64,000 nt of DNA from Methanosarcina barkeri 3 (lineage in GTDB: Archaea; Halobacteriota; Methanosarcinia; Methanosarcinales; Methanosarcinaceae). The translations under genes were made by a program, and so were the position numbers. A model generated the notes under the pieces. It had not been told where the DNA came from. It saw only the letters and a list, made by a program, of their open reading frames with translations, and made no database searches. Of the stretch, positions 14,690 through 16,578 are shown piece after piece. The number at the start of each line of letters is the position of its first letter. Position 1 is the stretch's first letter. The DNA is taken from NCBI RefSeq assembly GCF_000970305.1, contig NZ_CP009517.1:3658001-3722000 (forward strand), in the 5' to 3' direction.

Positions 14690-14830
14690 GCTCTTATTTT
14701 TCTTTACATTTTATTTTTTACTGTTTTTGCTTATCTTTACGTTTTATTTTTTACTGTTCTTGTTTATTTTTGCGTTTTATTTTTTACTGTTCTTGTTTAT
14801 TTTTGCGTTTTATTTTTTACTGTTCTTATT
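14690..14830 (+). repeat. 33-bp T-rich tandem repeat, about four copies
   Basis: Units around ACTGTTCTTGTTTATTTTTG repeat with a 33-bp period. All three plus-strand frames are open here only because the repeat is free of stop codons; the encoded Phe/Leu/Tyr strings are not a real protein. The many T-runs would end transcripts coming from nadM. Confidence 0.75.
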
Positions 14831-15373
14831 TTTCTTTCTCTTATTCCAGCCTTTATTATATTTTCCTCTGTTTTTTATAATTTCTTTTACCATTTAGTTT
14901 GTTTTTAATTTTCTAAAAATGAGACCTGAATCTAAGTATAAGATGTTCTTGAAATTTTTAGATCTATCTCCGAGTGAGACTAGTTTTGAGTTTTTTAATT
15001 ATCTACAAATGGTGTTTTACTCTTGTTATGTAGGGCACAACAGTTTAATATTTTTTAAAGAAGTGGACGCGATTAACTATAATAGATATCTCTAAGAGAA
15101 AATTTCTTATAAAAGAAAGTACTATTTTCATGTGTGAACTCTTAAAACTTTTTCATACAGGTGAGAGACATTTTCTATGTGTTTTTGTTATACTGTGTTT
15201 CAACTTTTAACCTTCAAATAACGTCTCAGGTTAATTGCTGCAACCGATATAACTAATGAACACGTTAGAAAAAACCTGTGTTTTCGAAGAAGTTAGAGTA
15301 CATAAAAACACCAATAGTGTGTTTAAACTTACACTGTTTGGTGAGAAATAACGTAGAAAATTCACTCAATCAT

Positions 15374-15430
15374 ATGAAAATATATCTCCTGATAAATCGG
15401 GGGGTTTAATCCAGAAGAGTATATTTTCAT
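15374..15430 (+). promoter_or_regulatory. Long hairpin upstream of the cysteine-rich protein gene
   Basis: A perfect 11-bp inverted repeat, ATGAAAATATA (15374-15384) and TATATTTTCAT (15420-15430), encloses a loop with a GGGGGG run. It ends 77 bp before the ATG of the cysteine-rich protein, so it may be a leader structure or a binding site. The rest of 14831-15373 shows no gene. Confidence 0.45.
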
Positions 15431-15507
15431 TGCCAGTGAAAATCGGATTTAAAAACCAATAATTTTTAAAATTTTTGTGATTGAGTGTATACTATGGAGG
15501 ATATAAA

Positions 15508-15885
15508 ATGCAAAGAACGTTATTCAAGACAGTATGTATTTTCACATTAGTTTTCTTTGTCCTGTCAATGACAGGAGCAGCCGCATGCAGTACATCGTGC
15601 AACAAATGCAAAACCGATGCAAGAAACGATACATTTAATTGTAAATGTAAATCTTGTTGCTATAACGTGCTAAGTAATGACAAAGGATGCAACCTTAAAG
15701 TTACATCTACAGGATGTTTTACTACAAAACTGGGCGGCAAGGTCTGTATGCAGAGTAACGGTAAATTCTGCTACACAAAGCCAGCAAGTTGCAAAAAATC
15801 TTGCACTGACAGTTTTAAATACTGTATAAAAGGTAAGGATGGAAAAACCGATTGCGCAACTGTTACGATTGCAGTCAAATGCTAA
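15508..15885 (+). CDS. Secreted cysteine-rich protein
   Basis: ATG 15508 is chosen for its GGAGG SD 7 nt upstream. The 125-residue product has a Sec signal peptide (QRTLFK then hydrophobic TVCIFTLVFFVLSMTGAAA). The mature part of about 100 residues carries 16 cysteines, an even number, with C-x-x-C, C-x-C and CC patterns, and is rich in Lys, Thr and Asn. Eight disulfides, or metal or cluster binding outside the cell, are both possible. I know of no family. The gene stands alone, with a hairpin upstream and a double hairpin downstream, so it is probably monocistronic. Confidence 0.7.
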   Translation: MQRTLFKTVCIFTLVFFVLSMTGAAACSTSCNKCKTDARNDTFNCKCKSCCYNVLSNDKGCNLKVTSTGCFTTKLGGKVCMQSNGKFCYTKPASCKKSCTDSFKYCIKGKDGKTDCATVTIAVKC

Positions 15886-15934
15886 AAATGTCCCTCGGAC
15901 TTTTGTCCTGTTGTTGTAACTGAGCAATTTAAGG

Positions 15935-16000
15935 GAAAAGGAAGTTTTAATCTTCCGGGGATATATTCCCCATATCCCTTACCAATTTCCTTCTCTTTTT
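15935..16000 (+). terminator. Double hairpin and T-run after the cysteine-rich gene
   Basis: GGAAG-TTTTAAT-CTTCC is followed at once by GGGGA-TATAT-TCCCC and then a pyrimidine/T-rich stretch. This is a good terminator for the cysteine-rich gene. The adenylate kinase gene converges on it from the other strand. Confidence 0.5.
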
Positions 16001-16029
16001 AATTCAGAAAGAATTGAGTTCAAGAACAA

Positions 16030-16578
16030 TTAAGGAACAAGATCAATCCAATCAATTGATCCGGGTCTATATTCTGACAATTCTTCTTCACTGCCACTTA
16101 AAATACAATCTATTATTTTTTCTATATGCTGTCCTGTCTCTTCAATGTTTTTCCCTGTCGTATTTATCTCAAAAACTTTCTTACACCATTCAAAGGCTTC
16201 AATAAGGATCACATCAAGAGCTTCAGCCTCAACATTTTCTCTTATTTTCTCTTCCGAATAGCCACGTGCTTCCAGCCTTATTTTCAATTCGGGAGGGTAC
16301 AGCCTGAGTACGATCACGATATCCGTGATATAATGGGCAAGGTGACTCTCAAGAATTATTACATCATTTCCTCTTCCACCAGTAATCTCTTCAAGATACT
16401 GACTGACAAGTTCCATATCCGCAATAACCGCATCCCTTTCCTCATCAATCTCGGTGTAGAGATGCTCTTCTTTGATCACTTCATTAAGGTGGATTACTTT
16501 CCAGTGCCTTTTACTCTCAAGAAACTTACTTACTGAGGTTTTTCCAGTCCCCGGTGTACCTGTGAGTCCTATTAACAT
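16030..16578 (-). CDS. Fap7/AK6-type adenylate kinase
   Basis: The 182-residue P-loop kinase has a Walker A at GTPGTGKTS (7-15) and a short NMP-binding region, the AK6/Fap7 pattern rather than bacterial Adk. In eukaryotes and archaea this family has adenylate kinase and ATPase activity and helps mature the small ribosomal subunit (18S/16S 3' end) with uS11 (known for the family). No clear SD lies before the ATG, so the transcript may be leaderless. The gene is convergent with the cysteine-rich protein gene. Confidence 0.85.
   Translation of the reverse strand: MLIGLTGTPGTGKTSVSKFLESKRHWKVIHLNEVIKEEHLYTEIDEERDAVIADMELVSQYLEEITGGRGNDVIILESHLAHYITDIVIVLRLYPPELKIRLEARGYSEEKIRENVEAEALDVILIEAFEWCKKVFEINTTGKNIEETGQHIEKIIDCILSGSEEELSEYRPGSIDWIDLVP

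Follow-up and report, generated by a model that had tools for sequence, protein, structure and literature searches.

A cysteine-loaded Big_9-type Ig protein of Methanosarcina, a candidate disulfide-stiffened surface protein flanked by conserved candidate RNA elements

FrhA and MpAFP are adhesins, and their split Ig-like domains are the solved structures nearest to the protein described here. Among archaea, an exported Ig domain named VARTIG has been reported from Thermococcales (PMC8416519, excerpt) and a Cys-rich extracellular protein, Mvol_1221, from Methanococcus voltae (PMC9431491, excerpt). For Methanosarcina itself, the excerpted text of PMC12369344 gives Rnf as a marker of Type II, states that Type I species form methanochondroitin aggregates, and describes the Type I electron conduit as unknown. 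In the window, by which we mean the whole 64,000-nt stretch of Methanosarcina barkeri 3 DNA that was analysed, lies the gene of a small exported Ig-like protein rich in cysteine. The explanation that we prefer, with a rough probability of 0.5, is a Cys-loaded secreted Big_9 Ig protein that is stiffened by disulfides, forms part of a cross-linked surface or matrix mainly in Rnf-lacking Methanosarcina, and is flanked by RNA elements. The gene and the parts of its product are as follows.

15508 to 15885, + strand: gene of the secreted Cys-rich Ig-like protein (Cys-Ig gene), 125 aa, from the sequence, paralogues and orthologues
15496 to 15500, + strand: ribosome-binding site GGAGG, from the sequence, conserved in the leader alignment
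15508 to 15585, + strand: signal peptide, about residues 1-26, from the sequence, near-identical across the family
15610 to 15882, + strand: Big_9 Ig-like core, residues 35-125, with 13 cysteines, from Pfam, AlphaFold, PDB matches and the core Cys count

The reading frame runs from the ATG at 15508 to a stop codon at 15883-15885. Its N-terminus, MQRTLFKTVCIFTLVFFVLSMTGAAA, is of the Sec type by eye in the window protein and its relatives, with a basic start, a hydrophobic core and MTGAAA. The mature part (residues 27-125, 99 aa) contains 16 Cys and the signal peptide one more, which bears out the sequence-only reading of a clear signal peptide followed by 16 cysteines in about 100 residues. 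The predicted export of the Cys-Ig protein is thus well supported. A lipoprotein was considered and rejected, as the Cys beside the cleavage site varies (e.g. L009, L003) and a lipobox is absent by eye. L005, L007, L008, L020 and L021, like the weak profile matches, are small exported proteins with a family-like signal peptide and unrelated mature parts, which carry Trp/Lys-rich repeats in L020 and L021 and Gly/Asp/Trp-rich repeats in L007. Between the NMNAT-like gene and the Cys-Ig gene, at 14692-14837 of the window, there is also a T-rich tandem array with a period of 33 and 4.4 copies.

The gene had been taken for an orphan of no recognisable family. Paralogues, orthologues and a Pfam domain were all found, and the mature part is a Big_9 or cadherin-like Ig domain according to both Pfam and the structure matches. 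Big_9 (PF17963) covers residues 53-121 with 25.8 bits against a cut-off of 23.6. The four family genes that the genome carries all exceed the cut-off, as do six of six relatives that were run (L031, L004, L034, L018, L014 and L002); beyond these four, Big_9 matches in the genome are confined to two open frames, one of 1016 and one of 669 codons. Relatives with few core Cys are plain Big_9 domains; L034, whose core is free of Cys, scores 54.4 bits. The AlphaFold model, made with 26 relatives, is a confident Ig-like sandwich with block means of 90-96 from residue 41 onward. In VIA-align its nearest solved structure is the FrhA split Ig-like domain (Z 12.8, rmsd 1.7, 90 residues), followed by that of MpAFP (Z 11.4-11.8), and the next rows have Z 8.5 or below. 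Foldseek and the sequence profile concur with these two matches, and the viral structure library gave distant Ig-like matches only. The predicted Ig-like fold is therefore well supported, and the protein is, by model and profile, a stand-alone, Cys-enriched Ig domain of the adhesin type. A fold shared with adhesins does not by itself show function. No cofactor motif was matched by the Cys-Ig protein.

Could the gene be a fragment of a larger surface protein, as the sequence-only reading had allowed? The domain type does repeat in large adhesins. The gene is nevertheless complete, conserved and under dN/dS of the purifying kind, so this candidate was rejected. It stands alone in all relatives seen except L031, a family member of 286 aa (L031 1501-2361) with an extra C-terminal part. 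This part showed no Pfam or PDB sequence match; by eye it has a Cys-His-Asp pattern suspected to resemble transglutaminases.

The family is confined to the genus as far as it was traced. The home genome (4.56 Mb, one contig) carries four family genes with 100, 87, 77 and 67% identity to the query. With the protein query, matches at E 0.001 or better came from 14 of the order's 149 genomes, every one of them in the same genus, and none of 129 other genomes of the order contained the family; the weak matches in G104 and G132 cover the signal-peptide end only. A profile matched 24 of the 30 genus genomes at E 0.001 or better, 18 of these at 1e-30 or better. The weaker profile matches are mostly signal peptides of other small exported proteins, and the family is present in 18 of the 30 Methanosarcina genomes. 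Among 392 genomes of the phylum, profile matches outside the genus sit in ORFs of 811-3237 aa. A collection of named genomes gave 32 loci, 25 of them from Methanosarcina (L069 among these covers residues 1-30 only); the remaining seven are weak matches to large bacterial Big_9 proteins, the best by E-value with 33% identity over residues 33-125. The protein alignment (A1) used 26 of 27 extracted members, leaving out the fusion L031. The family is found in 17 of 22 Rnf-lacking genomes, whereas only one of eight Rnf-bearing genomes has it (Fisher p 0.0025, a value that ignores kinship and includes some incomplete genomes). The lone Rnf-bearing carrier, G130, has a protein with two core Cys, and several of the five Rnf-lacking genomes without the family are incomplete. 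A literature search over titles and abstract openings, with subscription papers mostly outside its scope, gave none that describes the Cys-Ig family or its leader.

The position of the gene is conserved. Apart from G144, all 17 genomes that have both leader and family gene place it with an NMNAT-like gene on one side and a convergent AAA gene on the other (loci L117-L130, L132, L133 and L139); at locus L064 of G144 (Ant1) the right side alone is visible. The conserved neighbourhood comprises NMNAT, AAA, cytochrome b5-like and DUF255 genes. In 12 pairs of close homologues dN/dS was 0.05-0.49, which indicates purifying selection among such pairs. M. spelaei has the same locus, where the neighbouring proteins share 90-99% identity with their counterparts in the window but the Cys protein only 65%; alleles of G136 and G121 are closer to this Cys protein, at 90-93% identity. 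One allele exchange, judging from these identities, is visible there. The same observation could speak for a variable surface protein that recognises a partner, phage or kin, with alleles swapped between loci and strains, and both the several dispersed paralogues per genome and the adhesin-associated domain type would suit such a role. We consider it quite unlikely, however, given the purifying selection in close pairs, a single clear exchange and the absence of a variable downstream module.

Then, what could so many cysteines do in an Ig domain? Across 40 relatives the number of core Cys is graded from 0 to 15. The five strongest Cys co-occurrences in 40 distinct proteins are 95-125, 70-80, 45-99, 51-88 and 106-116, and no residue is shared between them. 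By the strand limits of the AlphaFold model, used in place of coordinates, 70 lies opposite 80 and 106 opposite 116 across predicted hairpins; 45-99 and 51-88 were drawn from co-occurrence only. On a tree built from Cys-free columns, 70-80, 95-125 and 106-116 have two co-changes each, neither 45-99 nor 51-88 is in the list of 22 co-change pairs, and other column pairs (c185-c245, 34-c182) reach three. Because few co-changes are left once the tree is taken into account, and unrelated column pairs have just as many, we term the five pairs candidate disulfides. Outside the core, at least two Cys are present in all 40 proteins, those with Cys-free cores included, and the Cys total is odd in 17 of 40; intermolecular joints at the ends are favoured for these two reasons. 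The home genome encodes exported thioredoxin-fold proteins by eye (L174-L179), some of them lipoprotein-like and two fused to PKD or beta-helix parts, so that extracellular thiol chemistry is possible; VKOR is absent from this genome. The earlier suggestion of a disulfide-rich extracellular factor is strengthened by the signal peptide, by co-occurring Cys pairs that fit the predicted strands and by these thioredoxin-fold proteins.

We propose the following mechanism. A Big_9-type Ig domain of Methanosarcina would have had its strands and ends loaded with Cys. The protein would be exported through its signal peptide and then oxidised by a partner, most core Cys forming cross-strand disulfides to give a small rigid Ig module. 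Spare Cys of the flexible N- and C-terminal ends may link the molecules to one another or to other surface proteins. This would make it a cross-linked protein of the cell surface or extracellular matrix, chiefly in Type I, aggregate-forming, Rnf-lacking Methanosarcina, with an inferred role in cross-linking or adhesion.

The thiols, mainly those of the ends, might instead bind Fe, Zn, Cu or iron sulfide, or serve extracellular electron uptake, in a metal-binding or redox-active surface protein. Clusters resembling CxxC at the ends, with up to nine Cys in the C-terminal tail of L058, would suit metal binding as well; the Cys outside the core and the 17 odd totals are compatible with it too, and the family occurs mainly in Rnf-lacking genomes, whose electron conduit is given as unidentified in the excerpt of PMC12369344. 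The core Cys, on the other hand, co-occur as pairs on facing strands, which suits disulfides better, and known cofactor motifs are unmatched. We regard this alternative, which takes up the metal binding proposed from the sequence, as unlikely. A secreted toxin-like peptide or bacteriocin, also proposed then, would be small, secreted and Cys-rich as this protein is. That proposal found no support and is highly improbable, since the fold is Ig-like and of the adhesin type, the conserved neighbourhood holds no immunity-like or export partner, and there are several copies per genome.

15355 to 15507, + strand: conserved 5' leader, about 145 nt from P1 to the start codon, from covariance model R1
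15363 to 15372, + strand: 5' arm of P1 (CACTCAATCA), 98% of cells paired in 20 sequences
15478 to 15487, + strand: 3' arm of P1 (TGATTGAGTG), 8 nt before the ribosome-binding site, from the same alignment
15374 to 15431, + strand: P2, the hairpin already noticed in the sequence, with an 11-bp stem 15374-15384 / 15421-15431, exact in the window

The perfect 11-bp stem is as first described, ATGAAAATATA at 15374-15384 pairing with TATATTTTCAT at 15421-15431, 76 nt ahead of the ATG. A larger fold surrounds it, closed by the 10-bp P1, with -37.5 kcal/mol and z -2.75, and none of 200 shuffles was as good. RNAalifold proposed P1 unaided and did not choose P2, which has 92.4% of cells paired over 20 sequences. 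In P1 one pair is doubly changed in two sequences and five pairs vary on a single side; the helix is kept paired through C-G to U-A and G-U changes. The covariation score of P1, P2 and P3 together was reached by one of 500 shuffles, their doubly changed pairs by 22 and their further pair types by 217. The aligned loci show, by eye, TATA-like boxes ahead of P1, which makes transcription of P1 probable. The leader alignment (A2) and R1 were made from 20 sequences, which R1 recovers by construction; L019 (interrupted by tandem repeats), L062 (diverged in its 3' half) and loci duplicating ones in use were omitted. Two near relatives have leaders 98.6% and 96.6% identical to this one, a higher identity than in the adjacent AAA coding region; against M. 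spelaei the values are 96.6% for the leader, 92.2% for the AAA coding region and 73.7% for the mature part.

R1 gave 30 matches in 23 of the 30 genus genomes and no match in 81 genomes from the rest of the family Methanosarcinaceae; in the window, 15355-15507 is the sole site with a convincing score. Seventeen matches are at the syntenic Cys-Ig gene. G144 has four rows, counting both halves of an interrupted leader, before three tandem family genes, and further leaders before the fusion L031, a beta-helix protein and a PKD protein, one each. The leader precedes an exported thioredoxin in G151, a 37-residue ORF with the family's signal peptide in G152, and beta-helix proteins in G104 (two), G155 and G073. 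The leader-bearing proteins of G073, G144 and G151 were run through Pfam, and those of G104 and G155 were judged by likeness; the unrelated exported proteins are L134 (G151), L140 and L142 (G144), and L135, L137 and L138 (G104, G155 and G073). In G104, G155, G073 and G144:C60 the start codon is farther downstream, seemingly with its own ribosome-binding site, so the leader there cannot act exactly as in the window. In L019 (about 1310-1480, G144:C47) the leader is broken by tandem units of about 25 nt (AATTTAATATTCAGTATCTTTGGAA). The dispersed paralogues have another conserved 5' region (AAGTATGTTTATATG...TTTCGATT), in some twice, upstream of L002-L004, L012, L022-L027, L033, L045, L048, L053, L055, L056 and L060; it has no consistent fold and looks like a promoter plus start region.

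15926 to 15996, + strand: 3' three-way-junction element, from covariance model R2

Behind the gene a three-way junction is predicted at about 15930-15982 (z -2.61, two of 200 shuffles as good). R2 gave 37 matches, spread over 18 of the 30 genus genomes. Each of the 37 comes after a family gene and shares its strand; none followed any other gene in these 30 genomes, and 81 genomes from the rest of the family Methanosarcinaceae had no match. In this counting the two G150:C146 matches stand for a single gene, and G144:C8, a weak and broken match, is taken as a family gene. The element accompanies 37 of 40 family genes, the three without it being in G144. The alignment (A4) holds 17 copies, which R2 again recovers by construction. 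The element has kept its likeness in paralogues with 50-70% protein identity, and common descent could have carried it along. Its covariation is weak, 139 of 500 shuffles being as good, and too weak to prove the fold. The double hairpin terminator first reported here is thus predicted to be a three-way junction, with no hairpin-plus-T match on the + strand. Both hits of a hairpin-plus-T scan of 15200-16100 fall on the - strand, one of them inside the 3' element, and the + strand gave none. A T-rich stretch of the + strand at 15987-16001 lies 3' of the junction, and archaeal terminators are not known to need a hairpin. In Rfam, the same interval had no match at the gathering score for leader or 3' element and five sub-threshold matches only.

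The leader and the 3' element probably set the translation or stability of the mRNA. Alternatively, the leader may act as DNA, being an operator or a promoter region, and the 3' element may be a mere terminator carried by duplication. A DNA-binding protein could recognise the inverted repeat made by the arms of P1, duplication hands flanks to paralogues, and the covariation is modest in the leader (22/500) and weak in the 3' element (139/500). This has to be set against a P1 that is probably transcribed and kept paired through base changes, and against a 3' element that has no hairpin-plus-T on the + strand and stands behind no other gene. We find this non-regulatory reading possible and on the whole doubtful. 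A bolder version of the regulatory reading, which we offer as speculative and rather improbable, is an undescribed pair of cis-RNAs in which a leader of exported proteins and a 3' element reserved for Cys-Ig genes would tie a surface signal to the synthesis of an oxidised coat protein.

If true, Cys-Ig, thioredoxin, beta-helix and PKD genes would have a leader RNA in common, with a long-range helix just before the ribosome-binding site, and leader and 3' element would be candidates for new archaeal cis-regulatory RNAs. The Cys-Ig protein provides a definite candidate component of the Type I Methanosarcina surface or matrix. Its graded core, from 0 to 15 Cys in strict anaerobes, offers a natural series for the uptake of disulfides by a fold.

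How does the protein compare with known systems? Like Mvol_1221, as presented in the excerpt of PMC9431491, it would be a Cys-rich protein outside a methanogen cell, but the genus is another one and the likeness is by description, not by sequence. With VARTIG, as far as the excerpt of PMC8416519 describes it, it shares an archaeal exported Ig domain, conserved Cys and signs of allele exchange; VARTIG, however, is a large protein of several Ig domains with variable downstream genes, whereas the Cys-Ig protein is small and single-domain, lies at a conserved locus without such genes and is under purifying selection in close pairs. The RTX adhesins FrhA (9y9w, 9ybq) and MpAFP (5k8g, 6x5w) provide the nearest folds (Z 11.4-12.8, 26-28% identity), whereas the Cys-Ig protein has no inserted peptide-binding domain, RTX or anchor region and is free-standing and Cys-rich; with an ORF of 125 aa and one domain, it is not a large multi-domain adhesin. 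With Big_9 proteins it has in common the profile match, the Ig-like sandwich, the NVLxND motif and the DSFxYxxxxxDGxTDxATVxI end of the large members. Whereas these are built of repeats over hundreds to thousands of residues, the Methanosarcina protein is one lone domain, with 13 Cys in its core and more at its ends.
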